Source: Pseudomonas parafulva (GTDB taxonomy: Bacteria; Pseudomonadota; Gammaproteobacteria; Pseudomonadales; Pseudomonadaceae). Taken from it: DNA of 64,000 nt. The position numbers were made by a program, and so were the translations under genes. The stretch lies in NCBI RefSeq assembly GCF_000800255.1, contig NZ_CP009747.1, positions 682,001-746,000 of the forward strand, written 5' to 3'. The notes under the pieces are model-generated. The model did not search any database and was not told the DNA's origin. It was given only the letters and a program-made list of their open reading frames with translations. Shown one piece after another: positions 27,361 through 47,039 of the stretch; positions within the stretch are counted from its first letter, which is position 1, and each line of letters starts with the position of its first letter.

Positions 27361-28419
27361 CTACCAACCGGCCACGCCGCCGTCGCCCGCCAGCACCTGG
27401 CCCTGGGCCCGCAGTGCCTCGATCAGGAAGAACGTCGCGCAGGGCGTCTCCACCAAGTGGGTCTGCTGTGGGCCGATGCGGTAACTGTGGCCCACGAAGC
27501 GGCCGCGCTTGACCTCGGGCGACAGCAACCCGCCGATCTGCCGACAGGCCAGTTCGCACCAGGCATTGCGCCCTGGCAGGCATTGCCACAGGCGCAGCAG
27601 CGCCAGCGAGGCGATGGCGATGGCGCAGGGGTCCGCCTCGTTGGCGCGCAGGCGCCCGGCGGCGGCCTGGGCGCCCCAGCGCTGGGTCCAGTATTCGCAC
27701 GCCCGCGCGGCGGCCTCGGCGTATTCGCCGCCGTACCGACCCACGGCCTCGGCCAGGCCCAGCATTGCCCAGGCCTGACCGCGCGCCCAGTGTCCGGGCG
27801 CGCTGCGCTGCCAGTGCCCGTCGGCGTGGCGCACGGCCTGGGCGGCCCAGGCGCCTGACGGCTCGGCCAGGCTGTGCAGGCAGCGTTGTAGATGCCGGCG
27901 CGCCAGGTCTGCGTGGCTCGCCACGGGGCTGCTGTGCAGCAGCGCCAGGGTCGGGGCCAGGGCATCGACGTCGAGGGTGGCCGCCCCTGGCTCGCCTGCG
28001 CCCAGGCCGGTGCCCAGCCACCAACCGCCCAAGCCAGGATCGAAGTCGGCGGCCAGGGCAGCGGCGGCGCGCTCGGCCAATTGCCGCGCCTGTGCGCCTT
28101 CCGGGTAGCGGGCGGCCAGGCCGGCGCCGTACCAGAACACGAAGCTGCGGTTGAGGCTGGGTTCGGCCAGTTGCCCGTGCAAACGTTCGCTCCAGGCCTG
28201 GGCTTCGGCCAGGTCAGTGGCCTGCCCGCTGAGCCCGGCGCGGCGCCACCACAGGGCAGCCCAGAAACCGCCCAGCCAGGAGCCACGCCGCGACAGCTTC
28301 CACGGCGTGTCCGGGGCCAGGCGATACAGCGGGAACTGCCCGTCGCACTGCTGCGAGACCCGCCCCAGCGGCGCCAGCAAAGCCTCGATGATCGCCTGAC
28401 GCTTACGCTGTTCCGGCAT
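27361..28419 (-). CDS. GH88/GH105-like (alpha/alpha)6-barrel protein at the end of the thiocarboxylate locus
   Basis: A 352-residue protein. The motif GHWARGQAWAMLGLAEAV and the repeated helical hairpins (WSERLHGQL, ACEYWTQRWG, ATFFLIEALRA) are those of six-hairpin glycosidases of the unsaturated glucuronyl hydrolase type; Asp residues in TLDVDALAPTLAL could be catalytic. Such enzymes hydrate unsaturated uronides, which makes no obvious sense in a metallophore operon. It could have a recruited role in hydration or hydrolysis of an intermediate. The start overlaps the MFS gene by 17 bp, so it is translationally linked to the cluster. The family call is fair, the function unknown. Confidence 0.6.
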   Translation of the reverse strand: MPEQRKRQAIIEALLAPLGRVSQQCDGQFPLYRLAPDTPWKLSRRGSWLGGFWAALWWRRAGLSGQATDLAEAQAWSERLHGQLAEPSLNRSFVFWYGAGLAARYPEGAQARQLAERAAAALAADFDPGLGGWWLGTGLGAGEPGAATLDVDALAPTLALLHSSPVASHADLARRHLQRCLHSLAEPSGAWAAQAVRHADGHWQRSAPGHWARGQAWAMLGLAEAVGRYGGEYAEAAARACEYWTQRWGAQAAAGRLRANEADPCAIAIASLALLRLWQCLPGRNAWCELACRQIGGLLSPEVKRGRFVGHSYRIGPQQTHLVETPCATFFLIEALRAQGQVLAGDGGVAGW

Positions 28420-29581
28420 CGCTGCAGCCCTCCTGCGTGCGCCGCGCCCGGTACAGGCTGCGGCACAGTCCGGCGCCCACGCACAGCGCTGCCATCAGCA
28501 GTGTCCAGCCTGCCGTGAAACCACCGGGCTGGCGCAGCAGCGCGGCGAACAGCGGCGGTCCGAGTGCGATGCCGCCGAAGAAGCCCAGCGACAGCAGCCC
28601 GGCGCTGCCGGCCACGCCACCGAAGCGCGGCTCGCGCAGCAGCATGCTCATCGCCACCGCATTGCTTGCCACCAGACTCAGCCCCATGCCCAGCACGGCG
28701 CCCCACAGCGGCCAGAGCCGACCCGGCGCCGCCTGCTGCAACAGCAGCACGGTGACCAGGGCGAACAGGAACAACCCGCCGAGCAGCGCGGTTTCATCGC
28801 GCAGCGCCGCGCCCAACGGGGTCAACAGCAGGCGCGAGAGGATGCCGGTGATGCCGAAGCCGCTGATCATCAGCCCGATAGTGGCCGGGGCGACGCCAAG
28901 ACTGCTCGCATACACGCCAAAGAAGGTGATGAACGCTGACAGGCACAGCCCCGCGCAGCCCTGGATCGCCATCAGCCGCAGCAGCCAGCCGTTGGGCCGC
29001 TGCACGCGCAGCGCGGTCTTGGCCGGTGTGGCCGGTGCGGCGATCTGCCGGGCCACCCCCAGCGCCAGCAGCAGCGCCAGCGGTGCCCAGCAGGCCAGCG
29101 CCAGGCGCCAGCCCAGCGCTTCGCTGAGCGCCGGCAAGGCAATGCCTGCCAGCAGCGCCGACGCCTGCACCCCGGCCTGCTTGATACCGACCAGGCTGGC
29201 CCGTGGCGCATCGGCGGTCTGGGCGATGGCCTGGTTGGTGGCCGGGTTGGCCAAGGCCTGCGCCGCGCCGCAGAACAGCAGCGCCACCACCAGGCCGACG
29301 AAGCCCGGCAGCACCAGCACCAGGCTGAACGACAACGCCACCAGCACGAACAGCGCGCGCAGCCCGTTGCGCGAGCCGATGCGCTGCACCAGCGCCCCGG
29401 CCCAAGGCGACAGCAGCGCGGCCAGGCCGAAGGCGCTGGTGGTCAGCCAGCCCAGTTGCTGGCGGTCGATGCCCAGGTCGGCGATCAGTTGCGGGCCGAG
29501 CACGCCGAGGGCATAGAACACCATCATCGGCAGGCCCATGGCGCAGGTGAGCAGGGCCGCCAGCGGCACGTGCCGGTTCAT
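28403..29581 (-). CDS. MFS transporter (likely exporter of the locus product)
   Basis: A 392-residue major facilitator with about 12 hydrophobic segments. The first loop has LGWLTTSAFGLAALLSPWAG and a basic loop-2/3 region (GSRNGLRALF), resembling CynX/YybF-type permeases. It overlaps the acyl-CoA-dehydrogenase gene by 4 bp (ATGA) and the GH88-like gene by 17 bp. A role as inner-membrane exporter of the small molecule, or as importer of the metal complex, is inferred from position only. Confidence 0.75.
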   Translation of the reverse strand: MNRHVPLAALLTCAMGLPMMVFYALGVLGPQLIADLGIDRQQLGWLTTSAFGLAALLSPWAGALVQRIGSRNGLRALFVLVALSFSLVLVLPGFVGLVVALLFCGAAQALANPATNQAIAQTADAPRASLVGIKQAGVQASALLAGIALPALSEALGWRLALACWAPLALLLALGVARQIAAPATPAKTALRVQRPNGWLLRLMAIQGCAGLCLSAFITFFGVYASSLGVAPATIGLMISGFGITGILSRLLLTPLGAALRDETALLGGLFLFALVTVLLLQQAAPGRLWPLWGAVLGMGLSLVASNAVAMSMLLREPRFGGVAGSAGLLSLGFFGGIALGPPLFAALLRQPGGFTAGWTLLMAALCVGAGLCRSLYRARRTQEGCSDAGTA

Positions 29582-30786
29582 GGCGCCCCCTTGCCGTGCA
29601 GGTGCACGGAGGGCGCCAAGGCATCGAAGGCCACACCGGGTTGCGTGGCCTCCAGCAGATCGCGGCCCAGGGTGCTGATCAGTGCATCGTCGGTGCCGTC
29701 GAGGATGTGCGTGGTGCGCGCGCCGCGATAGATGCCCGACAGCGGCGACAGCTCGCTCAGGCCCTCGGCGCCCGTCACCTGGATCGCCGAGTCCACCGCC
29801 AGCGACAGCGCTTCGCTGGCCGCCAGCTTGGCCAGGTTGACCTCGATGGCGTTGGCCTGGCCACGGTCGAACTTGGCCGCCGCATCCTGCAGCAGGCCGC
29901 GTGCGCTGGCGATTTCACGAAAGCTGCGGTACACCCGGGCGCGCACCAGTTGCTTGTCGGCCAGCCGTGCCTGGGCGCCGCGCGGCGAGTGTACCCGTGC
30001 GCACAGCGCGTCGAAGCAGCGCTGGGCCAGGCCCAGCCAGTGCGCCGCGCGCAGCAGGCGGCCCAACCCCAGGCGCTGCTGCATCAGCGCCAGGCCCTGG
30101 CCCGGTGCGCCCAGCACCTGGTCGGGCTGCACCCGCACCGCTTCCAGGTGCACCTCGCCCTGACCCTGCTGGCGACCGAGCAGTGCCAGCGGCCGGACGA
30201 AGCGAAACCCTGGACTGTCGCAGGGCACCACCAGCATCGACAGCGCCGACGGCAACGGACCGTCGTCGGTGCGGGCGATCACAGTGGCGAAGTCGGCGCG
30301 CTCGGCGCGGCAGATGAACCACTTGCGCGCCGTCAGTTGCCAGTGGTCGCCTTGCCAGTGCGCCCGGCTGTTGAGCGTGGCCGGGATCGAGCCGATGCTG
30401 TCTGGCTCGGACATCGCATAGCAGGGCACTTGTTCGCCGCGCACCAGCGGCAGGTAGAAGCGCTCGCGCAGGCTCGGGTTGGCGTGGCGGGCGAGCATGT
30501 GGCAGTCCAGCGTGGCGTCGCAGCCCAGCAGCGCCGGGGCGAATTCGCTGCGTCCTTCCTCGGCGGCCACGGTCAGGTAGTCCACCAGGCTGGCGACCCG
30601 GCCGCCGTCGGCCACGGGATAGAAATTGCCGAACACGCCCTCGGCCTTGGCCTGAGCCTGCAACTGGGCCGTCAACCGCGCCGCCGCCGCATCGCAGCGG
30701 CCCAGCTCGGCCTCGCGCGGCAGCACCTGCTGCTCGACGAAGTGGCGCACCCGCTGCGCCAGGTGGGAGACATTCTCGCAGGTCAT
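29578..30786 (-). CDS. Acyl-CoA dehydrogenase-family flavoprotein
   Basis: A 402-residue ACAD-fold protein. The flavin/substrate segment is YAMSEPDSIGSIPATL with KWFICRAERADF, and the C-terminal helix block has AIQVTGAEGLSELSPLSGIY followed by RGARTTHILDGTDD. In typical family members the last motif reads YEGT with the catalytic Glu; here it is LDGT, so the base appears to be Asp or absent. ACAD homologues accompany thiocarboxylate siderophore genes, where an oxidation of a CoA- or carrier-bound ring is plausible. It is 3 bp from the ligase gene, the same operon. Confidence 0.75.
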   Translation of the reverse strand: MTCENVSHLAQRVRHFVEQQVLPREAELGRCDAAAARLTAQLQAQAKAEGVFGNFYPVADGGRVASLVDYLTVAAEEGRSEFAPALLGCDATLDCHMLARHANPSLRERFYLPLVRGEQVPCYAMSEPDSIGSIPATLNSRAHWQGDHWQLTARKWFICRAERADFATVIARTDDGPLPSALSMLVVPCDSPGFRFVRPLALLGRQQGQGEVHLEAVRVQPDQVLGAPGQGLALMQQRLGLGRLLRAAHWLGLAQRCFDALCARVHSPRGAQARLADKQLVRARVYRSFREIASARGLLQDAAAKFDRGQANAIEVNLAKLAASEALSLAVDSAIQVTGAEGLSELSPLSGIYRGARTTHILDGTDDALISTLGRDLLEATQPGVAFDALAPSVHLHGKGAP

Positions 30787-30789
30787 GGC

Positions 30790-34235: not shown

Positions 34236-34270
34236 GGGCGGATCTCGCGGACAGGGGACGGGCGAGCAGG

Positions 34271-34292
34271 CTTCGCGGGCGTACCCGCGAAG
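34271..34292. repeat. Intra-operon hairpin between carrier and CaiB genes
   Basis: CTTCGCGGG-CGTA-CCCGCGAAG forms a perfect 9-bp stem with a 4-base loop in the 71-bp gap after the sulfur-carrier stop. There is no T run. It may act as an mRNA stabiliser or partial terminator that keeps the small carrier more abundant than downstream enzymes (inference). Confidence 0.55.
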
Positions 34293-34306
34293 GGCTGGAG
34301 GGCGCT

Positions 34307-34579
34307 TCAGCCGCCAGCGACGGCCGGCAGTACGGTCAGCTGATCGCCCGGACGGGTCGCCGTGGCCAGCCCGTCGGCGAAGCGGATGTCGTCATCGTTG
34401 ACGTAGATGTTGACGAAGCGGTGCACCTGGTCATCGTTGACCAGCCGCGCCTTGAGGCCGGGGAAGCGGCTGTCCAGGTGCTCGATGATGTGGCGCACCG
34501 TGTCGCCCTCGGCCTGAACCTGTTTCTGCCCTTCGGTGAGCGGGCGCAGCAGGGTGGGAACCATCACTGAAACCGACAT
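34307..34579 (-). CDS. MoaD/ThiS-like sulfur carrier protein ending in Gly-Gly
   Basis: A 90-residue ubiquitin-like beta-grasp protein. The terminal sequence QLTVLPAVAGG stops directly after the double glycine, which is adenylated and thiocarboxylated by the E1 partner. Upstream features are the NIYVNDDDIR strand and EGDTVRHIIEHLD helix typical of CysO/QbsE-class carriers. A GAAGGAG site fixes the start at 34579. It is flanked by the JAMM protease and MoeZ-type genes, the same trio as cysO/mec/moeZ of mycobacteria and the pdt and qbs siderophore loci. As thiocarboxylate it would deliver sulfide to an acyl-AMP. Confidence 0.88.
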   Translation of the reverse strand: MSVSVMVPTLLRPLTEGQKQVQAEGDTVRHIIEHLDSRFPGLKARLVNDDQVHRFVNIYVNDDDIRFADGLATATRPGDQLTVLPAVAGG

Positions 34580-34622
34580 GCGAATCTCCTTCTTTGCGTG
34601 TGGGGCCGCCGTGGCGACCGGT

Positions 34623-35033
34623 TCATGGCTGGACGGACAGCGGTTCCTCGAACACCCGCCCGTCGATGATGCGAAAGCTGCGCGCCGCATGCCGGGCCTC
34701 GGCCCAGGTCGAGACGATCAGGTAATGCACCTGGCCGTCGCTGGCATGGGCGATGTCCTCGCGGCTGGGCCAGGCTTCGCTGGCGGTGTGCGAGTGGTAG
34801 ATCACCCGGCAGTCCTCGTCGCGCTGGTCCAGCTCGCGCCAGACCTGCAGTTGCTCGCGCGGATCGAAGCTGAACCAGGTCGGGCTGGCCGCCTGGTTGC
34901 GCAGCGGGACCACGCGCCGGGCCAAGGCCTGGCCACTGGCGGCGGCGATCAGGCCGCAGGCTTCGATCGGATGCGCGGCGCGGGCCAGGCGCTGAACCTC
35001 GGCCAGCGCCTGGGCGCTGATGCGCAGAACCAT
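34623..35033 (-). CDS. JAMM/MPN+ zinc metalloprotease (Mec/QbsD-like)
   Basis: A 136-residue single-domain protein with a complete JAMM site: Glu24 (IEACGLI), His80 and His82 (YHSHT), Ser90 and Asp93 (PSREDI). In mycobacteria Mec cleaves a cysteine adduct from CysO; in thioquinolobactin synthesis QbsD removes two residues from the carrier to expose its Gly-Gly end. Here the carrier gene already ends in Gly-Gly, so a Mec-like release of an adduct is more likely than maturation. It sits 11 bp after the MoeZ-like stop. Confidence 0.85.
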   Translation of the reverse strand: MVLRISAQALAEVQRLARAAHPIEACGLIAAASGQALARRVVPLRNQAASPTWFSFDPREQLQVWRELDQRDEDCRVIYHSHTASEAWPSREDIAHASDGQVHYLIVSTWAEARHAARSFRIIDGRVFEEPLSVQP

Positions 35034-35043
35034 GTGGCTGTCC

Positions 35044-36216
35044 TCAATAGCTCGGCAGGGCCGGCTCGACGTCACGCACCCAGGCCAGCACGCCGCCTTC
35101 CAGGTCGCGCACCTTGCCGTGGCCCAGGCGTTGCAGGTCGCCGGCCACCGCGCGCGAGCGCATGCCTGACTTGCAGGTGATCACCAGGTCGGTGTCGTGG
35201 CCGTAGCGCTCGACGATCTGCGCCGCCACCTGCTCGGACTTGGGCATGAGCACGGCGCCGTCGATGCGCACGATGTCCCATTCGGTCGGCTCGCGGACAT
35301 CGATGATCACCGGCGCGCGCCCGGCGTCCTGCAGCGACTTGAGCTGCACCGCGCTGATCGCCGGCACCCGCGGCGCGTCGCTGGCCGCCGGCCGGTTCAG
35401 GCCGCACAGCGCCTGGTAGTCGCCCAGGGCGGTGACCGCCTGGCGTTGCGGCAGGCGCCGCAGGGGCAGTTGGCGATAGCTCATCTGCAGCGCGTCGTAG
35501 ACCATCAGGCGGCCCAGCAGCGGCTCGCCGATGCCGGTCAGCAGCTTGATCGCCTCGGTGGCCATGATCGAGGCGATGGCCGCGCAGAGCACGCCGAGCA
35601 CGCCGCCTTCGGCGCACGAGGGGGCCAGTTCCGGCGGTGGCGGCTCGGGGTACAGGTCGCGGTAGTTGAGGCCGCGACCGTCGGGTGCGTTTTCCCAGAA
35701 CACCGAGGCCTGGCCTTCGAAGCGGAAGATCGAGCCCCAGACGTAGGGCTTGTCGGCCAGGATGCAGGCGTCGTTGACCAGGTAGCGGGTGGCGAAGTTG
35801 TCGGTGCCGTCGAGGATCAGGTCGTAGCCGCTGAACAGCTCCACGGCCATGTCCGCTTCCAGGCGCTCGGTGTGGGTGCGCACCTTCACCAGTGGGTTGA
35901 GGCGGGCGATGGCCTGGCGTGCGCTTTCCACCTTGAGCTCGCCCAGGTTGTCGACGGTGTGGATCACCTGGCGTTGCAGGTTGGACACATCGACCCGGTC
36001 GAAGTCGATCACGCCCAATGTGCCGATGCCGGCCGCGGCGAGGTAGAGCAGGGTCGGCGAGCCCAGGCCGCCGGCACCGATGACCAGCACCTTGGCGTTC
36101 TTCAGACGACGCTGGCCGATGACGCCGATGTCGGGAATCAGCAGGTGGCGGCTGTAGCGGTTCACTTCTTCGCGGCTGAGCTCGGCAGCGGGCTCGACCA
36201 GAGGCGGTAGGGTCAT
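35044..36216 (-). CDS. MoeZ-type E1 adenylyltransferase with rhodanese domain
   Basis: A 390-residue fusion. The N-terminal ThiF/MoeB domain (about 1-260) has VLVIGAGGLGSP at residue 44, DNLQRQ-like DRVDVSNLQRQ and catalytic Cys201 (PSCAEGGVLGV). The C-terminal rhodanese domain (about 285-390) has the persulfide site Cys348 in TCKSGMRS. It adenylates the C-terminal glycine of the sulfur carrier and transfers persulfide sulfur to it. The paired zinc cysteines of E. coli MoeB are not seen, as I recall also for mycobacterial MoeZ. The start at 36216 follows a GGAAGAA site. It is the first gene of an eight-gene run. Confidence 0.88.
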   Translation of the reverse strand: MTLPPLVEPAAELSREEVNRYSRHLLIPDIGVIGQRRLKNAKVLVIGAGGLGSPTLLYLAAAGIGTLGVIDFDRVDVSNLQRQVIHTVDNLGELKVESARQAIARLNPLVKVRTHTERLEADMAVELFSGYDLILDGTDNFATRYLVNDACILADKPYVWGSIFRFEGQASVFWENAPDGRGLNYRDLYPEPPPPELAPSCAEGGVLGVLCAAIASIMATEAIKLLTGIGEPLLGRLMVYDALQMSYRQLPLRRLPQRQAVTALGDYQALCGLNRPAASDAPRVPAISAVQLKSLQDAGRAPVIIDVREPTEWDIVRIDGAVLMPKSEQVAAQIVERYGHDTDLVITCKSGMRSRAVAGDLQRLGHGKVRDLEGGVLAWVRDVEPALPSY

Positions 36217-36246
36217 ATCGCTTTCTTCCATTCAGTAGATACGAAC

Positions 36247-36265
36247 TGGAACCATTTTCAATTGC
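36247..36265 (-). promoter_or_regulatory. Weak Fur-box-like site upstream of the MoeZ-type gene
   Basis: The reverse strand here matches the 19-bp Fur consensus at 11 positions by my count, with the left half better than the right. It lies 31 bp upstream of the start in the 168-bp gap between the two halves of the locus, where an internal promoter would be expected. Suggestive only. Confidence 0.25.
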
Positions 36266-36399
36266 GGCGACCGTCGATTCAATCCGTTGGTGGGGCCGAT
36301 TCGTATGGCAAAGCGCGGGAAAACTATGGGGTTCGGTGGGCGGTGCTGCTGGGTCGTGTTGGGGGCTGCTGCGCAGCCCCGAATGCCTCACCCAAGGCC

Positions 36400-38919: not shown

Positions 38920-41288
38920 CAGCAGTTTTCCATGTTCAGGCGGCTCCAGGCCGTTTCCGAGACCAGGCTCAAGCCATCGCCCTCGGAGTTGTGGCCGAGC
39001 CAGACGTCGAAGAAGTTGAGGCGTCCCGGCGCGCTCAGCGCCTGGCGCAGGGTGTCGGGGCAGAAGTGCAGCAGGCGTGCGCGGCAGATGCTGATCGGGC
39101 CGAAGGCGCGCTCCTGCCACAGCGGTCCGTCGGCCAGGGGCACGTTGACCTGGCTGGCGCCGTGGCAGGCGTAGCGCTTGTCCAGGTAGGTCTGGATCAT
39201 CGACAGCACACCGTTGGCCAGGTACATCACCGTGACGTTGCGCTGGGCGCCATCGGCGGCGCTGGCCAGGCTCATGGCCAGGCGCTGCTCGATGTCCGGC
39301 ACCAGCGCGCGGGCGCCGTCGCCGATGAAGGCCAGCACATGCCGGCCGTCGTTGCGGGCGATGTACGGCAGCGACACCAGCGCATCGCCCATCAGTGCCC
39401 GGCCGTACCAGCCGGAAAAACCGGCGTCGGTACGCGGCAGGTTGCGCAGCGCCGAGAGGCTGCAGCGGCCGACGTCGAAGACGCCGGTATAGCGGTAGCC
39501 GTCGCGCTCGATCATCTCGCCGAGCAGTTGGCCGAGGCGGTGAAAGAAGAAGTTGGGCGTCATCGGCAGGGTTTCGATCTGATCGCTGGGCAGCACTTCG
39601 CGGGTGCGTTGCAGGCGCTGCAAGCGTTCGCGGCGCGCCTTGAGCAGCGTCGGCGGGACGGCCAGGCGCGGTTCGAGGTAGTCGAGCACGGTGTCCAGGC
39701 CGAGGGTGACCGGCAACTCGCAGAACGGTGCGATGTGCTCGGCTTGGCGGTTGATCTGCACGATGTGGAACAGGCGTTGCAGACGGCCTTCGGAGTAGGG
39801 CGTGGCCGACTGGTCGATCTTGCTTTTGACGAACACCAGCCAGGGCTTGTCCGGCGTGTCCTCGGGCTGTTCCAGAAAGGCATGCACACGGCGGCTGAAG
39901 CCGTACATCGACAGCGGACCGAGGTAGTTGGCCACCGGTTCCTGGTCCTGGTAGGCGCACACGCTGCCGGGGGCGACGAGGCTGTCGGCCAGGGCGATGC
40001 CGCTGCGCCGGGCCAGCTCGACCACGCGCTGGCGCTCGCGGGCGTCGAGCCGGCCACATTGCCAGAGCACGCGCGAAGGGGCGTGGTTGAGCACCTCCAG
40101 CAGTTGTTCGAGGCTGGCCTGCTGCTGCGCGCTCAGGCCATGGGCGGCGGGCTCGATGGGCGCGGGTGGCGCGGGCTGCTCCACCGCCGCGCGCGACTCC
40201 AGCACCGCTTGAGTGGCGAACAGAAAGGTCGGTGCCGGGCGCTGCGCCAGGGCCTCGAAGGCCTGTTCGACACAGGCCGGGGCTTCGTCGGGACGGCGTA
40301 TGAAGCGCTGCCACAGGCCACGGGCGGCGATCACCTGGTGGCCGTCGTTGTCCGCGTCCAGGCTGCCCTGGAAGGCGAACCACACCGATTCGGGCGAGTC
40401 GGCGCAGATCACCAGGCCCGGCGCACCGGCGCGCTTGAGATTGGCCAGGGTGCCGCGCATCTCGTCGAGCATCCCCGAGGTCATCACGATCACATAGGCG
40501 CGCTGGTACAACTGCCAGCCGGCCAGGGCGCTGACCGCCAGGGCGTGCTCGTTGCAGGCGCTGTGGAAACCGCAGGCGGTGGGCCGCAGCAGCTCGCCGA
40601 GCGAGTCTAGAAAGCCGGCGACCATGGAGCCGGTGAAGAAATGGCAGTCCCAGGCCTGGCCCCAGCGTTGGGTCATGCGCTGCTGGATGTCGCGGGCCAG
40701 CGCCACCGGCTCGCTGGTCTGCAGTGTGGTGCGGGCCAGCAGGCGGTTGCAGTAGGCGTGTTCCAGGTGGTCGACGAACAGGCGCAGCAGGTCGGCGCGG
40801 CGCAGCGCCGGGTCGGGGTGGGGCACGCGCAGCAGGCGGTTGCCGCCCAGCCGTTCGAGCCAGTGCTGCAGGTGCTGCGGGTCGCACAACAGCACGGCGC
40901 TGCTGGGCGAGCGCCGGGCCTGGGGTTGAGCGTCGAGCAGCGCGTGCAGTGGGTCATGTGCGGGTTGCTGGGACAGATGGCGGGTGTCGAGCAGCACGTG
41001 ATCGCATGGGCAGGCCGAGGGCAGCGCGGCGTGGGCCTGGGCGAGGTCGTCGAAGGCCAGCAGTTCCAGCGCCAGGGCGCCTTCGCCGGCTTGCTGGCGC
41101 AGGTACGCCTCGGCCTGGCCCGCCACCTGGCGGTACAGGCTGTCCAGGTGCGCGTCCGGCCAATGCTGGCTGGCCAACGGGGTCTCATGGCCCAACCAGT
41201 GGTTGAGCCGGTCGAGCACGGCGCTGACATCGGCCCGCAGCGCGGGGTCGCGGCTGATCAGGCAGATGCCGTAGCGGTGTGGCTTCAT
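38919..41288 (-). CDS. TPP-dependent enzyme with extra N-terminal domain
   Basis: A 789-residue protein. Residues 1-190 form an unrecognised leader domain. From about 200 it has a TPP pyrimidine domain (activating Glu247 in HSACNEHALAVSAL), a central domain (about 390-560) and a pyrophosphate domain with IGDGARALVP at 656-658 and Asn692 in YLANGVLS, a spacing longer than usual between the metal ligands. The fold group includes acetolactate synthase, sulfopyruvate decarboxylase and carboligases. It may join or decarboxylate 2-oxo acids to build the carbon skeleton. It overlaps its neighbours at both ends (4 bp with the MFS gene, 1 bp with the fusion gene). Confidence 0.72.
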   Translation of the reverse strand: MKPHRYGICLISRDPALRADVSAVLDRLNHWLGHETPLASQHWPDAHLDSLYRQVAGQAEAYLRQQAGEGALALELLAFDDLAQAHAALPSACPCDHVLLDTRHLSQQPAHDPLHALLDAQPQARRSPSSAVLLCDPQHLQHWLERLGGNRLLRVPHPDPALRRADLLRLFVDHLEHAYCNRLLARTTLQTSEPVALARDIQQRMTQRWGQAWDCHFFTGSMVAGFLDSLGELLRPTACGFHSACNEHALAVSALAGWQLYQRAYVIVMTSGMLDEMRGTLANLKRAGAPGLVICADSPESVWFAFQGSLDADNDGHQVIAARGLWQRFIRRPDEAPACVEQAFEALAQRPAPTFLFATQAVLESRAAVEQPAPPAPIEPAAHGLSAQQQASLEQLLEVLNHAPSRVLWQCGRLDARERQRVVELARRSGIALADSLVAPGSVCAYQDQEPVANYLGPLSMYGFSRRVHAFLEQPEDTPDKPWLVFVKSKIDQSATPYSEGRLQRLFHIVQINRQAEHIAPFCELPVTLGLDTVLDYLEPRLAVPPTLLKARRERLQRLQRTREVLPSDQIETLPMTPNFFFHRLGQLLGEMIERDGYRYTGVFDVGRCSLSALRNLPRTDAGFSGWYGRALMGDALVSLPYIARNDGRHVLAFIGDGARALVPDIEQRLAMSLASAADGAQRNVTVMYLANGVLSMIQTYLDKRYACHGASQVNVPLADGPLWQERAFGPISICRARLLHFCPDTLRQALSAPGRLNFFDVWLGHNSEGDGLSLVSETAWSRLNMENC

Positions 41289-42565
41289 GGTTTGCCCTCC
41301 AGAGCGATGGCGGTGACACCGGGGGCGGCGTCATCGGGGGTGTGCAGCAAGGCGTCGGTGCTGCGGGCGATGCTGTGGCGCACCCGCCAAGCCAGCAGCA
41401 GGGCCAGCAGCAATCCGCCGCACAGGCTGGCGAGCAGGCCGCCGTAGCCCAGGCGGTCGAGCAGCAGGCCGGCGAGCACCGGCGCTGCCAGGCGGGTGAT
41501 GACGAACAGGCTCGATTGCAGGCCGTAGTCGCTGGCGCTGCGCTGCTGGCGGCTGAAGAACAGGGTCAGGCCGAACATCAAGGCCGACACGGCGCCCATG
41601 CCCACGGCCAGCAGCAGTGCGCCGGCGATCAGCCACGCCGTACCCAGCCGCAGCCATACCGCCAGGCCCAGCACCAGCAGGGCGAGCAGGGCGCTCGACA
41701 GGTACAGGACGATGGCCCGCGCGGTGCCCAGCACGCCGATCAGCCGACCGCCGAGCAGGCTGGCCAGCGCACCGAGGGCGCCACCGGCGATGCCGACCAC
41801 CCAGGCTACCTGTTCCAGGGCCAGGCCTTGGTCGAGCAGCAGTGGCTTGAGGTACAGCCAGGCCGCGCCGATGAACGGAAATGCGCTGAGCAGCAGCCAG
41901 GTCCACTGGCGCGCGGCCGGTTGGCTGAAGAAACTCGCCCAGTCGGCCATCACCCCGGGCGCCGCGGAGGGCTGCGCGGGCGCGCTGGGCAAGCGTCGTC
42001 CGACCCATAGCAGCACCAGCACGCCGAGCCCCAGCGCCGTGCCCATGATCGCGAAAGGCGCCTGCCAGCCCAGGCGCGCCTGCACCAGCAGCATCGCGCC
42101 GCCGCCGACGATGGCACCGACGAACAGCGCGGCAGCGCGAATGCTGCCGGCGCGCACCTGCTCGCGGCGCGGCAGCCAGTGCACGGCCAGGGCATTGAGC
42201 GGGATGTCCATCCAGGTGGCGATGAGGCTGATGGCGAACGTCATGGCGAACAGTGCCAGGCGCTGGTCGATGAGGTTGTCGCGGGCGATCAGCGCGTACA
42301 GCCCGATCAGCGCCACGCTCAGCACCAGCAGCCAGCGTTGCAGGGGGGCACGGCTCAGGCGCACGCGCTGTACCGGCACCGCCAGCAGGAACTTGAACAC
42401 CGCCGGCAGCCCGGCCAGTTGGAACAGCCCGATCTCGGTGCCGCTCCAGCCGTATTGGCGCATCACCAGTGGCAGGCCGAACATCAGGTAGATGCTCGGC
42501 ACCGCCAGGGCTAGGTTGAGCCAGCCGAACAGCAGTTGCAGCGCAGTGAGGCGGGCGCGGGTCAT
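41285..42565 (-). CDS. MFS transporter, AmpG/FptX-like (siderophore permease candidate)
   Basis: A 426-residue 12-span major facilitator. The N-terminal pattern LMFGLPLVMRQYGWSGTEIGLFQLAGLP-like region and the central TWMDIPLNALAVHWLP segment recall the AmpG/RhtX/FptX group, which includes inner-membrane importers of intact siderophores (pyochelin, rhizobactin). Given the TonB receptor nearby, import of the metal-thiocarboxylate complex is plausible. Co-translated with the TPP enzyme; 4 bp downstream of the methyltransferase. Confidence 0.75.
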   Translation of the reverse strand: MTRARLTALQLLFGWLNLALAVPSIYLMFGLPLVMRQYGWSGTEIGLFQLAGLPAVFKFLLAVPVQRVRLSRAPLQRWLLVLSVALIGLYALIARDNLIDQRLALFAMTFAISLIATWMDIPLNALAVHWLPRREQVRAGSIRAAALFVGAIVGGGAMLLVQARLGWQAPFAIMGTALGLGVLVLLWVGRRLPSAPAQPSAAPGVMADWASFFSQPAARQWTWLLLSAFPFIGAAWLYLKPLLLDQGLALEQVAWVVGIAGGALGALASLLGGRLIGVLGTARAIVLYLSSALLALLVLGLAVWLRLGTAWLIAGALLLAVGMGAVSALMFGLTLFFSRQQRSASDYGLQSSLFVITRLAAPVLAGLLLDRLGYGGLLASLCGGLLLALLLAWRVRHSIARSTDALLHTPDDAAPGVTAIALEGKP

Positions 42566-42569
42566 GGCA

Positions 42570-43634
42570 TCACTCCTTGGCCTTGCGGGCGATCACGGCG
42601 GTGACCGGCGTGACCGGGTAGCGGACCCCGTCGATCTGCTCCACGCCGCACCAACCGTTGTCCCGGAGCTGGCCCGCCAGTTCGCCTTCGGCCAGCACGT
42701 GGCGGCCCTGCAGGCGCATGTGCAGGTAGTACGGCAGCACCTGCGCGGCGGCCGCGCGGGCCTGGGGCACTTCGGCCTGGCAGCACACCAGCAGCCCGCC
42801 GGGGACCAGGGCGGCGTGCAGGCGCTGTAAGGTGGCCGGCAGGTCGCGGACGAAGTGCAGCACCGAGGAACACCAGATCAGGTCGTAGCCGCAGCCGATG
42901 TCGTCGCTGTCGAGGTCGCCGCCCTGCGCATGCAGGCGAGCGCTGAGGCCCGCTGCGTCGATGTTGTGTGCGGCCACCGCGGCCGTTTGCGGGTACTCGA
43001 ACACGGTGCCGCTGAGCGCCGGCAACTGCCGGGCCAGGGCGATGGCCACCAGGCCGGGGCCGCCGCCGAGGTCGAGCAAGCGGCGCAGGCGCGGGTATTC
43101 CGGCAGGCTGGCCAGCAACGCGCAGGCGCTGTCGCAGGTGACCGCGCGCTGCTCCTGGGCGATCTGCAGGCGGGCGGCATTGGCCCAGGCCTGGTCGAGC
43201 TGGACGCTGGTCGGCGTGCGCCGGGGCAGGCCATTGCGCAGGTAGTCGTCGAGTTGCGCGCCGGTCTCGCGCAGCACGCGATGACGGAACATCAGCGCAT
43301 CGCCGCAGTAGCTGGCGCCGTCGCTGCGCAGGTGACGGTCGGCCAGCGGGCGGTTGCGGTAGTGCGCTGGGTGCTGGGTATCGCGCTCAAGCAGGCCTTG
43401 GCTCCACAGCAGTTCGAGGAAATAGCCGGTGCTGTCAGCGTGCCAGTCCAGGTGCTGTGCCAACTGGGTGGCGGGCTTGAACTGTTGCAGGTGGTCGAAC
43501 AGGCCGTGCTCCAGGGCCAGGTGCAGGGCATCGGCGCCCAGGCCACCCAGTTGCAGGTCCCAACTGGGCTGCAGCGGATGGGCGGTGGTGAGGTCCAGGG
43601 GCGCCGGGTGCGGGCGGGGGGCGTGTCGGGTCAC
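42570..43634 (-). CDS. SAM-dependent O-/S-methyltransferase with N-terminal dimerisation domain
   Basis: A 354-residue protein. The N-terminal helical part (about 20-110) resembles the dimerisation domain of small-molecule methyltransferases; the SAM motif is LLDLGGGPGLVAIALA, with an acidic pair in GGDLDSDD and the post-motif CGYDLIWCSSVLHFVRD. pdt and qbs loci also contain methyltransferases. The likely start is GTG at 43634, following AGGACG; the frame is open 15 codons further to another GTG. It is first in its operon, about 100 bp from a Fur-box-like site shared with the divergent AraC gene. Confidence 0.78.
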   Translation of the reverse strand: MTRHAPRPHPAPLDLTTAHPLQPSWDLQLGGLGADALHLALEHGLFDHLQQFKPATQLAQHLDWHADSTGYFLELLWSQGLLERDTQHPAHYRNRPLADRHLRSDGASYCGDALMFRHRVLRETGAQLDDYLRNGLPRRTPTSVQLDQAWANAARLQIAQEQRAVTCDSACALLASLPEYPRLRRLLDLGGGPGLVAIALARQLPALSGTVFEYPQTAAVAAHNIDAAGLSARLHAQGGDLDSDDIGCGYDLIWCSSVLHFVRDLPATLQRLHAALVPGGLLVCCQAEVPQARAAAAQVLPYYLHMRLQGRHVLAEGELAGQLRDNGWCGVEQIDGVRYPVTPVTAVIARKAKE

Positions 43635-43731
43635 GTTAACGTCCTGTCGTGGGCTGACCCGCGCCTTTGGGCAGGTCACGGGTCTGAAACGAAACGGGGC
43701 ATGGCCGAATCGGCGAAAAGGGTGGTATATA

Positions 43732-43750
43732 TTAAATGAGAATCATTCAC
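43732..43750. promoter_or_regulatory. Fur box candidate in the AraC/methyltransferase divergent promoter
   Basis: TTAAATGAGAATCATTCAC matches the 19-bp Fur consensus at 13 positions by my count, including the whole AATCATT half. It lies in the 182-bp gap between the regulator and the biosynthetic operon, where it can repress both under iron sufficiency. A -10-like TATATATT precedes it. Confidence 0.7.
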
Positions 43751-43816
43751 GTAAAGTATGCGAGCCGGAGCCGTTTCTATGCGGCGCGATGGCCGCCGAC
43801 CCTCAGGGATGTCTTG

Positions 43817-44779
43817 ATGAACACGACCAATGCCGTTTCCCGCCTGGGCCTGGATCAACCCCGCCACCGTTCGGTGAGCAGCGATGGGCGTCTGCGCCTG
43901 CAACTGGACGAGACCTACGGGCAGTGCCACACCGACCTGCTGCAACTGGAGCAGGGGCTGTCCCTGGGCCGACTGCACTACCACCCCACGCGCACGCTGG
44001 TAGAAGAGACCTGTGGTCCGCACGACGGCCATGTGATGGTGGTCACCGTGGGCTTGCAGGGAAAATCCGGCTTCATCGGCCAGGACGGCAGCACCCTGGC
44101 CTTCGAAGCCGGGCACACCACCATCACCGCCTTTCGGGCCACGCCGGGCGAGCGGCGCTACCAGGCCAACGAGACCGCTTCGCAGCTGCGCGTGGTGATC
44201 GACCATGCCACGTTGTGCAAGTACGTCGGCGAGGCGCGGGCGACCGAGGTGCTGGGCAGCGGTCGCCTGCATCGCCTGGATTTTCGCCGCAGCTCCCAGG
44301 CCGCCCAGGCCCATGCCGCCGCACTGGTGCGCTACCTGCAACCGGGCGGGCTGGACCCGGCCCATCGCCTGGACCTGCACATCCACACCCTCAGCCTGCT
44401 GGCCGAGCAGTTCAACCTACTGGCACCGCAGCAGAGCAGCACGTCGGCGATGAGCACCTGTGACATCCAGCGCATCGAGCGCGCACGCAACCTGCTGTGC
44501 GAGCAACTGGACAAGCCGCTGACCGTGGATTACCTGGCCACGGCGGTTGGCATGAACGAGCACAAGCTCAAGGAAGGCTTCCGCTACCTGTTCGATACCA
44601 CCCCGGCGCGTATGCTGCTGGAGCTGCGCATGCGCAAGGCCATGACCCTGCTGGAAGCCGGGCAGCAGGTGGCGCAGGCGGCGTGGCAGGTGGGGTACAA
44701 GTACCCGAACAATTTCACCGTAGCGTTCACGCGCTATTTCGGGCGCTCGCCAAAGTCGATTTTCGGCAAGAAGCGCTGA
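43817..44779 (+). CDS. AraC-family regulator, PchR/PdtC-like
   Basis: A 320-residue protein. An N-terminal effector domain (about 1-210) is followed by two helix-turn-helix motifs (about 225-320): LTVDYLATAVGMNEHKLKEG and VAQAAWQVGYKYPNNFTVAF. This is the class of siderophore-responsive activators such as PchR, which sense the imported ferric siderophore and switch on synthesis and uptake genes. It is divergent from the methyltransferase operon, convergent with the TonB receptor, and has a Fur-box-like site upstream. The start at 43817 follows CAGGGATG; an upstream ATG in frame (43736) lies in the Fur site and is rejected. Confidence 0.88.
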   Translation: MNTTNAVSRLGLDQPRHRSVSSDGRLRLQLDETYGQCHTDLLQLEQGLSLGRLHYHPTRTLVEETCGPHDGHVMVVTVGLQGKSGFIGQDGSTLAFEAGHTTITAFRATPGERRYQANETASQLRVVIDHATLCKYVGEARATEVLGSGRLHRLDFRRSSQAAQAHAAALVRYLQPGGLDPAHRLDLHIHTLSLLAEQFNLLAPQQSSTSAMSTCDIQRIERARNLLCEQLDKPLTVDYLATAVGMNEHKLKEGFRYLFDTTPARMLLELRMRKAMTLLEAGQQVAQAAWQVGYKYPNNFTVAFTRYFGRSPKSIFGKKR

Positions 44780-44843
44780 GGGATCGGCGGGCAGCGGCCC
44801 GAGCTATTCAGCTTTGCCGCCGCCCTGGCCGGGAGCGCTGTGC

Positions 44844-44931
44844 GGTCCAATCGCGACACAAGGCCGCTCCCACCGAGATTTGAGCTGCGCCCCAAATGTT
44901 GGACACCGGTCCACTTTTGGGGCGCAGCTCA
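44844..44931. terminator. REP-like fragment and long inverted repeat between araC-type and receptor genes
   Basis: A degenerate P. putida REP core (CGACACAAGGCCGCTCCCAC) ends near 44871. It is followed by a 16-bp perfect inverted repeat (arms TGAGCTGCGCCCCAAA at 44881 and its complement ending at 44931) with an 18-base loop. Placed between convergent stops, this is probably a bidirectional terminator. The loop contains its own GGACACCGGTCC near-palindrome. Confidence 0.6.
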
Positions 44932-44968
44932 GGCTTTTGTGGGCGCGGTGCGGGGGGAGTCCGGGGCT

Positions 44969-46957
44969 CTACAACTCGAAGCTGAGCCTCACGCCCACTT
45001 CGCGCGGCGGGCTGTAGACGGTCACCGCGCCGTTGAGCAGGCCCTGCGCGTCATAGCGCTTGTCCATCAGGTTGTCGACATAGGCGCTGACTGTGTACTG
45101 GCCAAACCGATACCCACCGCTCACGTCTACCAGCCCGTAACCGGGCCGCTGGTAGCGATTGGCTGCATCCAGGTAGATCTTGCCCACGGCGCTCAGGCCA
45201 CCTTGCACGTACCAGCCGTCATCGGCGTCGTAGCGCAGGCCCAGGTGGCCGGTGAGGTCCGGGGCGAAGGGGTTGCGATGGTCCTTGTAGTCGTTGAGCC
45301 CCTCGCTGAAACGCTCGAAGCGCGTGCGGTTCAGGCCCAGCGCGGCGGTCAGCGTCCAGCGCTCGCCAAGCAGGTATTCCAGGTCCAGGTCCAGCCCGGT
45401 GGAGGTGGCCGACGCCGCGTTGGTGATGTACACCAGCCCCTGTTGCACCAACTGCTGCACCTGCATGTCGCGCACCTGCATGTGGTACAGCGCTGCCGAG
45501 TAGCGCAGGCGCTGATCGACGCTCAGGCCTTTGACGCCGATTTCATAGCTGTTCACCCGCTCCGGGTCGTAGGCGGGGTTGCCGGCGTTGCTGGCGAAGG
45601 CGTTGAAGCCGCCGGCGCGCATGCCCTGGGTGTAGCTCAGGTACACCTGGGCGTCCTCGCTCAGGGCGTATTGCAGCGCGACCTTGGGCGTGAAGTGTTG
45701 CCAGCTGTCCGACTGGTTGCGGTTACTGGCTGGATCGATCCAGGCGCGGGCGTATTCGTAGCGCCCACCCAAGGTCAGCGACCACGCCTCGGACAGCGGC
45801 TGCAGCCACTGTCCGAAGACGGCGGCGGTGTTGCCGCCCAGGTCGGCCTGGGTGCGGGTCAGCGCCATTGGCAGTTTCTGCTCGTAGTCCAGGCTGTGAT
45901 CCTCGCGGTCGGCATACAGCCCCAGCAACCAGCGGCTTTGGCCCTGCTCGCCGCTCAGGCGCAGTTCCTGGCTGAGGGTCTCGAAGTGGTAGTCGCGGGC
46001 CAGGTGCATGAGGTCGCGGGGCTGGAAGTCGGTGTCCTGGCGCAGACGGTCGTCGAACACGCTGCGCGCGGTGATCGAACGCAGCTCGACCGTGTCGGAC
46101 AGGGCGCGGCGCAGGTCCAGCGACCAGGTGTCGCCGCTGGAGTGGTTGCGTCCCGCCAGCCCGGCATTCACCGCCCGGTCGCGACCCTGGCGGCTGCCCC
46201 ACTGCGAGGCCTCGTCACGGTATTTCAGGGCGCTGTAGCGCAGGGTCGCGTCGGTGAATTCATCCGGCGTCCAGCGCAGGGTCAGACGCCCGCTCTGGCG
46301 CTCGCGGTCGTCGGCCTTGCCGCCGGCGAAATCGTCGTCCAGGTAGCCGTCCTGGCGCGTCCACTGGCCAGCCAGGCCGCCGTACAGCGTGCCCTCGATC
46401 AGCGCCGTGCTCAGGTCGGCGCTGACGGTGCGCTTGTCGCGGCTGCCCAGGGTGGTGTCCAGCCGCGCGTAGTCGGCGGCGTCCGGCTGGCGGGTGAATA
46501 CGCTGAGCACCCCGGCTTCGGCGTTGCGTCCGTACAGCGCCGACTGCGGTCCGCGCAGGATCTCCACGCGCTCGACGCCGACCAGGTCGTTGTCGAAGCC
46601 TTGCCCGCGCAACACCGGTACGCCGTCCACCAGCATCAGCAGCGAGTTGGAAAAGGCCGTGGCGTTCGAGGTGAGGCCGCGCACCACCGGCAACTGGGTG
46701 CCGGACTGGCCGAACGGCTGGAAGGTGAAGCCGGGTGTGCGCCGCACCAGTTGTTCGAGCGACTGCACCGGCGTGCTCTGCAGCGTCGTCGCGTCGATCA
46801 CCGAGAGGCTGGCCGGCAGGCGCTCGCGCGACTGCTCCAGTTTGTCGCTGACCACCACGGTGTCTTCCAGCATCACCCGTTCGAGCGCGCTCGTCGGCAT
46901 CGCTCCGCCTGCGGCCACCAGCCCGCCGAACACGCCCCCCAGCCATCCCCTCGTCAT
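44969..46957 (-). CDS. TonB-dependent outer-membrane siderophore receptor
   Basis: A 662-residue precursor with a weak but plausible signal peptide (residues 1-25). A TonB-box-like DTVVVS lies near residue 32, followed by a plug domain (SVIDATTLQSTPVQSLEQLV, LVDGVPVLRG, VERVEILRGPQSALYGRNA) and a barrel with the FyuA-like end NLMDKRYDAQG. The last residue is Leu in VRLSFEL rather than the common Phe/Trp. Fur-box-like sequence lies 64 bp upstream. As the only receptor in the locus it should import the metal-loaded product. The ATG at 46957 has a GGGGAG site; the frame is open further upstream across the Fur site. Confidence 0.9.
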   Translation of the reverse strand: MTRGWLGGVFGGLVAAGGAMPTSALERVMLEDTVVVSDKLEQSRERLPASLSVIDATTLQSTPVQSLEQLVRRTPGFTFQPFGQSGTQLPVVRGLTSNATAFSNSLLMLVDGVPVLRGQGFDNDLVGVERVEILRGPQSALYGRNAEAGVLSVFTRQPDAADYARLDTTLGSRDKRTVSADLSTALIEGTLYGGLAGQWTRQDGYLDDDFAGGKADDRERQSGRLTLRWTPDEFTDATLRYSALKYRDEASQWGSRQGRDRAVNAGLAGRNHSSGDTWSLDLRRALSDTVELRSITARSVFDDRLRQDTDFQPRDLMHLARDYHFETLSQELRLSGEQGQSRWLLGLYADREDHSLDYEQKLPMALTRTQADLGGNTAAVFGQWLQPLSEAWSLTLGGRYEYARAWIDPASNRNQSDSWQHFTPKVALQYALSEDAQVYLSYTQGMRAGGFNAFASNAGNPAYDPERVNSYEIGVKGLSVDQRLRYSAALYHMQVRDMQVQQLVQQGLVYITNAASATSTGLDLDLEYLLGERWTLTAALGLNRTRFERFSEGLNDYKDHRNPFAPDLTGHLGLRYDADDGWYVQGGLSAVGKIYLDAANRYQRPGYGLVDVSGGYRFGQYTVSAYVDNLMDKRYDAQGLLNGAVTVYSPPREVGVRLSFEL

Positions 46958-47020
46958 CTCTGCTCCCCGTGCCTGCAAGACGCACCCCGAACGGGCGCGC
47001 GACGGACGGCATTGTAGCTC

Positions 47021-47039
47021 GCTATCGAGAATCATTTGC
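47021..47039 (-). promoter_or_regulatory. Fur box candidate upstream of the TonB receptor
   Basis: GCTATCGAGAATCATTTGC matches the 19-bp Fur consensus at 13 positions by my count, again with an intact AATCATT. Located just upstream of the receptor start, it predicts iron-repressed expression. Confidence 0.7.

Follow-up and report, generated by a model that had tools for sequence, protein, structure and literature searches.

A predicted thiocarboxylate-type metallophore locus of Pseudomonas parafulva that unites a pdt-type core with homologues of PigD and PigE

The window analyzed here, a stretch of 64,000 nucleotides from Pseudomonas parafulva (contig NZ_CP009747.1, positions 682,001 to 746,000; host genome, 5.09 Mb), contains a locus of 14 genes at 27361-46957, which an earlier note on this DNA described as a thiocarboxylate-type metallophore locus with an unusual set of skeleton-building enzymes. 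All the genes named in that note were recovered as intact open reading frames (ORFs), with Pfam and NCBIfam matches for all but the GH88-like one, including those of an E1/rhodanese protein, a JAMM protease, a Gly-Gly carrier, a ligase, a CaiB-family protein, an acyl-CoA dehydrogenase (ACAD), two major facilitator superfamily (MFS) transporters, a methyltransferase, an AraC regulator, and a TonB receptor. The genes from the methyltransferase (43679) down to a GH88-like protein (27361) form a run on the minus strand, the AraC gene is divergent, and the receptor gene is again on the minus strand; several adjacent genes overlap by a few bases. Within this run, a five-gene thioacid core is combined with homologues of the prodigiosin enzymes PigD and PigE, which points to a pdt-type pathway that has been extended. 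Genes mentioned below are on the minus strand unless stated otherwise.

The E1-rhodanese, JAMM, carrier, CaiB, and ligase genes are adjacent on one strand (30790-36231), as in a PdtF-J-type locus. The MoeZ-type E1-rhodanese fusion (35044..36231), identified by Pfam (ThiF, 263 bits; rhodanese, 55.7 bits), NCBIfam, and motif alignment, has CKSGMRS in its rhodanese part; the JAMM metalloprotease (34623..35075; Prok-JAB, 78 bits in Pfam) has an intact HSHx6PSxxD motif; and the ThiS/MoaD-like sulfur carrier of 90 aa (34307..34579; Pfam) terminates in AVAGG-stop, i.e., in an uncapped Gly-Gly end. The CaiB-family protein (32436-34235) comprises 599 aa in two halves, the second of which matches CoA_transf_3 in Pfam and resembles formyl-CoA transferases, and its D425, within PGTDF, is invariant in alignment A1. 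Its gene overlaps by 4 bases with that of the ligase (30790-32439; Pfam), which matches the solved salicylate-AMP ligase 5wm2 with 232.8 bits, a result that places it among the aryl-acid ligases. A two-domain type III CoA-transferase therefore stands within two genes of an acyl-CoA/AMP ligase, the arrangement of a thioacid cassette; such a pair makes a thioacid in vitro, carrier proteins being the likely sulfur donors, as described for PtmU4 and PtmA3 (PMC6006322). The same five members are listed as PdtF (E1-rhodanese), PdtG (JAB), PdtH (carrier), PdtI (CaiB-like), and PdtJ (AMP ligase) in row 4a of Table 1 of PMC1779556, where the set is given for PDTC (pyridine-2,6-dithiocarboxylate) and quinolobactin and is also recorded from Nitrosomonas, Nitrosospira, Ralstonia, and Hahella; the core is thus not new. 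Counterparts of PdtF-J in the window support the assignment to the thiocarboxylate metallophore type.

Two genes between the second MFS transporter (MFS2) and E1 had been noted earlier as a thiamine pyrophosphate (TPP) enzyme and an acyl-acyl carrier protein reductase (AAR)-aminotransferase fusion; both are present, and the identity that had been missed, on the evidence of NCBIfam, the solved PigE-like chain 4ppm, and trees, is that of PigD and PigE homologues. In prodigiosin synthesis, this pair builds the pyrroline part. The PigE homologue (36400..38919; 839 aa), comprising an AAR-like reductase domain and a class III aminotransferase domain, matches the NCBIfam model prodigi_MAP_PigE (NF053554) over its whole length with 1403 bits, above the cut-off of 850, and 4ppm with 937 bits over residues 1-837; C295, which we take to be the catalytic Cys of acyl-ACP reductases, and the pyridoxal phosphate (PLP) Lys631 are invariant among 15 PigE compared. 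Its aminotransferase domain supports the expectation of an amine-forming enzyme in the locus. The PigD homologue (38919..41288; 789 aa), a predicted thiamine diphosphate (ThDP)-dependent C-C bond-forming enzyme, keeps a ThDP-type motif and matches prodigi_MAP_PigD (NF053552) over most of its length with 603.5 bits, the cut-off of 950 not being reached. Identity to two true prodigiosin clusters is 52-54% for PigE and 35-39% for PigD. There is a 4-base overlap of the PigD gene with the MFS2 stop and a 1-base overlap of the PigE gene with the PigD stop. A search of the open-licence literature found no publication combining PigD, PigE, and thiocarboxyl. The equivalog cut-off of NF053554 being passed at 36400-38919, automatic annotation would label a prodigiosin enzyme at this position.

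The combination is conserved. In a sample of 298 Pseudomonas genomes, with PigE counted over the NCBIfam cut-off, a tandem CaiB of the window type occurs in 14 (split in one, G076), PigE likewise in 14, and PigE together with a thio locus in 13 (hypergeometric probability 1e-20, ignoring relatedness). The order methyltransferase-MFS2-PigD-PigE-E1-JAMM-carrier-CaiB-ligase-ACAD-MFS1 is the same in 11 other Pseudomonas genomes, with GH88 behind it in 10, the stretch of the 11th ending earlier; in a 12th (G248, L182), the block from TonB to PigE is inverted behind GH88 and the PigD/PigE pair stands just past GH88 on the other strand. The AraC and receptor genes are exchanged in several of these 12 relatives, and the receptor was not found in two. 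Among the 14 Pseudomonas regions fetched, the pair lies between MFS2 and E1 in 11 and behind GH88 in G248, and is absent in L046 and L047. The exceptional genome G132 has the pair without thio genes within 20 kb. At that site (L180, 8651-15935; G132:C1:3780000-3799999), the pair has as neighbours a gene of the Biopterin_H aromatic amino acid hydroxylase type and one for a PLP decarboxylase, and perhaps belongs to a separate small pathway.

Outside this sample, a scan of the contigs of named genomes gave 301 loci, of which the best 80 were retained. PigD or PigE is nearby in 24 of these 80 (in Vibrio L131, only a partial PigE); the hosts of the 24 are Pseudomonas, Stutzerimonas, Thauera, Advenella, a Burkholderiales metagenome-assembled genome (MAG), Microbulbifer, and Vibrio. 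The pair is placed in the gap between receptor and ACAD in Stutzerimonas kirkiae (L074), divergently from E1 in Thauera (L076), and behind GH88 in Microbulbifer (L127), as in G248. Of the remaining 56 loci, 43 have E1, JAMM, carrier, CaiB, and ligase, and the other 13 are at contig ends or actinobacterial; hosts of the pair-free core include Alcaligenes, Thauera linaloolentis, Ralstonia, many Nitrosomonas and Nitrosospira, and methanotrophs. PigE was searched genome-wide in 31 genomes (26 of the 56 with a pair-free locus and 5 with a pair-bearing locus) and passed the cut-off in six, five times in the locus and once, in Hahella, in a prodigiosin cluster; none was found over the cut-off in 25 of the 26 genomes with a pair-free locus. 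A genus sample of Ralstonia had PigE over the cut-off in 0 of 16, yet some PigD matches are named R. solanacearum. In a plasmid search, six records contained PigD at 35-38% identity, both of those opened being prodigiosin clusters, and CaiB was matched by 1041 records, only 2 of which covered at least 80% of its length. Tandem CaiB proteins P0143, P0145, and P0155 are filed under Salmonella enterica, perhaps from mislabelled or contaminated records, and the ligase of L117 (11650-21337, a Nitrosomonas MAG) is in two pieces approximately 8 kb apart, through insertion or misassembly.

The history of the pair was approached through quick trees. The core tree of E1, ligase, and ACAD contains 68 rows (74 loci with good matches, minus 7 duplicates, plus the window); loci without a good ACAD match (L094, L127, L131, L046, and others), some of them with the pair, were left out. 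Its 27 pair-bearing loci group in a single 37-row clade, alongside 10 without the pair, all from genomes checked genome-wide for PigE, with four changes, at least three of them forced. The PigD and PigE trees both separate thio from prodigiosin sequences with SH-aLRT support of 100, with long-branch warnings and only three prodigiosin rows; they repeat the main core groups, and the pair of G132 lies inside the thio clade. These patterns suggest that the core acquired the pair in one or a few events, that some loci lost it again, and that its place in the locus shifted; the trees show the pair as a clade largely inherited together with the core.

The ligase bears on how the pair may relate to the acid. 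Between S. kirkiae (with the pair) and T. linaloolentis (without it), the ligases are 89% identical, and to Alcaligenes faecalis (without it) approximately 82%; the corresponding values are 80 and 69% for ACAD and 71 and 57% for CaiB. Across 13 rows from this clade, four of them without the pair, the pocket segment YGSADGVNC is constant and the other segment reads PLGS[SA]FGS[ST]AT, and the ligases of nitrifiers, methanotrophs, and Microbulbifer deviate at a few positions. Since the pocket is nearly unchanged with and without PigD and PigE, the activated acid is probably the same in both kinds of locus, the pair being an add-on; this argues against the wholly new acid skeleton that had been envisaged, and an extended PDTC-like acid appears more likely.

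Comparison with known systems places the locus nearest to pdt (PDTC; P. stutzeri KC and P. putida), with which it shares the five core members in a comparison by published gene names; as far as pdt is known by description, the window differs in that PigD and PigE separate MFS2 from E1 and that the receptor gene has another position. The pair-free Thauera locus L075 has the order AraC-methyltransferase-MFS-E1-JAMM-carrier-CaiB-ligase-TonB, which presumably fits pdtC to pdtK. No Pdt protein is named among the 77 PigD matches (from 7992 candidates, many of them unnamed), a weak indication. The qbs type has E1, JAMM, carrier, two-domain CaiB, ligase, and TonB receptor in common with the window. 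L046, taken as a qbs-type control, has two aminotransferases, one of class V, with a weak match below the cut-off to the kynureninase C terminus, and one of class I, besides a fusion of ligase and methyltransferase and a carrier that ends in GGCF, as in the capped GG-CF carrier of qbs, whereas the window carrier ends in GG; CaiB and ligase are 40 and 44% identical between the two, and PigD, PigE, ACAD, and GH88 have no match in L046. A qbs locus was rejected against this control: the locus in the window is without kynurenine genes and, unlike L046, has neither the fusion nor a capped carrier. As the earlier note had stated, no kynurenine-pathway or dihydrodipicolinate family was matched by the locus proteins in Pfam and NCBIfam. 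The genome of L046 (G073) also carries a pair-bearing locus, L043. The ptm system of thioplatensimycin is similar in its acyl ligase and two-domain type III CoA-transferase (PtmA3/PtmU4), but recruits its carriers, which are capped, and its MoeZ and JAMM homologues from other parts of the genome and leads to an antibiotic, as described in PMC6006322; in the window, all parts stand in one locus, the carrier is uncapped, and a TonB receptor is present.

The carrier has a free Gly-Gly end in 60 of the 81 loci with a carrier match, and the JAMM motif is kept in 59 of these 60; these counts include near-duplicate loci. Capped carriers require a JAMM protein such as QbsD in the account of PMC6006322, and the association of JAMM with such loci was called mysterious in 2006 (PMC1779556). 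Because the carrier is already uncapped, the JAMM protein must have another task here, and the question of 2006 is sharpened to its role beside a free Gly-Gly end. In L104 (9452-11665; Nitrosospira multiformis Nl18), carrier and CaiB share one open frame with no stop between them, which may reflect either a fusion of carrier and CoA-transferase, for which cleavage by the JAMM protein would be plausible, or an error in the sequence.

The other genes of the run are largely ordinary. Among the 43 pair-free named loci with a full core, 40 have a clear ACAD match, 39 have MFS1, and 32 have GH88, and because of this recurrence these three are ordinary for the locus type; the description as an unusual skeleton set holds for the AAR-aminotransferase and the TPP enzyme, but not for CaiB, ligase, ACAD, the adjoining MFS, and the GH88-like protein, which recur in pair-free loci. 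The ACAD-family enzyme (29578..30786; Pfam) has ACAD11 as its nearest solved chain and an Asp in ILDGT at what we take to be the catalytic-base position; it scores 108 bits against the prolyl-carrier dehydrogenase model NF045652 (cut-off 650) and is 18-24% identical to two true PigA by alignment. MFS1 (28403..29581), a probable exporter by Pfam and locus comparison, and the O-methyltransferase (42570..43679; Pfam) belong to the run, as does the GH88-like protein (27361..28419; 352 aa). The last has no Pfam match of its own, and its earlier naming was borne out by a profile of 34 sequences, which matches the unsaturated glucuronyl hydrolase (UGL) 2ahf at 3e-24, and by an (alpha/alpha)6 AlphaFold2 model (pLDDT 94.5), which matches 3wiw (TM 0.80). 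D152 is invariant and aligns with UGL D149, and the W-x-RGQ-x-W motif is kept; UGL D88 aligns with Arg or Asn and no Asp was seen, in two slightly differing alignments that are uncertain here. D88 and D149 are the catalytic Asp residues of UGL. A dehydration or hydration step by the GH88-like protein is possible.

Uptake and regulation are represented by the receptor, MFS2, AraC, and two Fur-like sites. The TonB-dependent receptor of siderophore type (44969..46957), whose start at 46957 was chosen by us within an open frame extending to 47059, scores 210.9 bits against TIGR01783, slightly below the cut-off of 223.5. MFS2 (41285..42565; Pfam) is weakly RhtX/FptX-like (74 bits against an NCBIfam cut-off of 356) and may serve uptake. 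The AraC-family regulator (43736..44779, plus strand; Pfam) probably has its true start further in. Scored against a Fur consensus and given without strand, the site at 43732..43750 (TTAAATGAGAATCATTCAC), between methyltransferase and AraC, and that at 47021..47039 (GCTATCGAGAATCATTTGC), 63 bases ahead of the receptor start, each have 13 of 19 matches and hold GAGAATCATT, in agreement with the sites seen earlier. The window has six sites with at least 13 matches, where shuffling of single nucleotides within 200-base blocks gives an expectation of 1.25; four of the six lie outside the locus, and the count alone is therefore modest evidence. Taken together, the sites, the receptor, and the FptX-like MFS support a role in metal uptake.

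On balance, we consider it more likely than not that the locus serves both the synthesis and the uptake of a thiocarboxylate metallophore, its predicted product, through a pdt-type pathway to which a PigD/PigE module has been added. By homology, the E1-rhodanese would load sulfur onto the Gly-Gly carrier, forming a thiocarboxylate, the ligase would activate an aryl acid that is probably a dipicolinate-like pyridine-2-carboxylate, the ACAD would probably aromatize a dihydro-acid thioester, and the two-domain CoA-transferase would shift sulfur from the carrier onto the activated acid to give the thioacid. The PigE reductase domain would convert an acyl thioester to an aldehyde, PigD would add an acyl unit taken from a 2-oxo acid, and the PigE transaminase would aminate the PigD product and may close a 1-pyrroline ring. 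The methyltransferase would finish the molecule and the MFS pump export it; metal would be bound outside and return via the TonB receptor and the second MFS, with AraC and the Fur sites linking expression to ligand and iron. More tentatively, and with the balance of doubt against it, the product may be a PDTC-like chelator of an undescribed N,N,S class, one carboxyl arm being turned into an amine or pyrroline and the other into a thiocarboxylate; PigE would then reduce the pyridine-acid thioester of the core to the aldehyde, PigD add the C-C bond, and PigE aminate, which, if true, would give the PigD/PigE pair a job other than prodigiosin.

Several points weigh against this proposal. The ligase pocket is without the salicylate or dihydroxybenzoate (DHB) letters, so that the acid is inferred and not read, and the dipicolinate guess leans on pdt kinship and on pair-free loci that have no evident skeleton gene, few of which are annotated beyond the core. 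Clustering of the ORFs from 85 loci gave a list of the 70 most widespread non-core families, of which a few were annotated: receptors, an Alginate_exp porin, an alpha/beta hydrolase, and an FAD monooxygenase that occurs mostly in actinobacterial loci; a skeleton family may be present among the others. Further ORFs of the nitrifier loci L104 and L119 comprise a receptor, porins, an amidohydrolase behind GH88, hydrolases, unrelated genes, and two without a Pfam match, and some ORFs of Alcaligenes L077 and Thauera L075 comprise a receptor, AraC, GNAT, HMGL-like (at the stretch end), phospholipase D (PLD)-like, and racemase-like genes. Since no evident skeleton enzyme was seen in L104 and L119 besides ACAD, the GH88-like protein, and the amidohydrolase, the acid may be supplied by ordinary metabolism; dihydrodipicolinate of the lysine pathway, oxidized by the ACAD, would fit PDTC, as a guess. 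Known PigD chemistry requires an enal, so that the mode of action proposed here for the pair is tentative, and the lone pair of G132 shows that PigD and PigE need not act on a thioacid. Finally, PMC8614704 reports quinolobactin from an isolate of A. faecalis, on the basis of its mass and of a cluster with 26% similarity, which, if right, would speak against one common dipicolinate-type acid.

Among the alternatives, plain PDTC or another thioacid of the pair-free kind, with PigD and PigE as co-regulated passengers making a separate 2-methyl-3-amylpyrroline (MAP)-like pyrroline, seems rather unlikely: core loci with a closely similar ligase do exist without the pair, and its position varies between loci (the window and 11 relatives against L074, L076, L127, and G248), but PigD and PigE follow the main core groups in their trees, are located in the thio locus or next to it in 13 of the 14 Pseudomonas genomes that have them, and are bound to MFS2 and to each other by the short overlaps. 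That the skeleton of the acid is assembled by the pair, as a pyrroline or pyrrole acid from which activation by the ligase would lead to a wholly new thio-acid, is improbable. PigD and PigE are the sole evident carbon-skeleton enzymes in the locus, and the ACAD could oxidize a pyrroline to a pyrrole in view of its NF045652 match; against this stand the ligase and pocket, nearly identical in genomes without PigE over the cut-off, and the low identity of the ACAD to PigA. Still less probable is sulfur donation to another group, such as a thioamide, thioester, or thiohydroxamate, without a free thiocarboxylate, for which the retention of JAMM beside an uncapped carrier, unlike the qbs-type control, might speak; the full PdtF-J set argues otherwise, as does the ligase and two-domain CoA-transferase pair, which makes thioacids in the system of PMC6006322. 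A prodigiosin or tambjamine cluster, as the NCBIfam names would have it, deserves practically no credence and was rejected against two annotated pig clusters (L178 and L179) and that of Hahella (L181). The likeness consists of full-length PigE and PigD, the PigE score, and shared catalytic residues, but PigD is below its cut-off, both proteins form clades of their own, and the pair is joined to sulfur transfer and metal uptake. No match to PigB, PigC, PigG, PigH, or PigJ was obtained at 1e-3 by blastp of 16 window proteins against the two true clusters, a search limited to the locus, with the rest of the genome not searched; ACAD, methyltransferase, and ligase are only 21-28% identical to true PigA, PigF, and PigI, for which reason PigA- and PigF-like roles of the first two were rejected.

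A separate observation concerns the pair-free core, which is found in many ammonia oxidizers and some methanotrophs (L092, L096, L097, L102-L107, L109, L113-L115, L118-L122, L128-L130, and L147). Several of these loci also have a TonB receptor and a porin of the Alginate_exp type; a metal chelator is possible in these organisms, which depend on copper enzymes.

Thiocarboxylic natural products are rare, two having been known before thioplatensimycin and thioplatencin by the 2018 account of PMC6006322. As judged from its genes, the present locus is a real and conserved thiocarboxylate-metallophore cluster, and its novelty would lie in the PigD/PigE module on a known core of the pdt/qbs kind; its product may be an unrecognized relative of a known chelator. 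It also carries a warning, as the current PigE model labels such loci as prodigiosin. A conserved locus with Fur-like sites, found in 13 of 298 sampled Pseudomonas genomes and uniting the thioacid core with PigD and PigE, predicts a product to look for and would give the pair a second metabolic setting.

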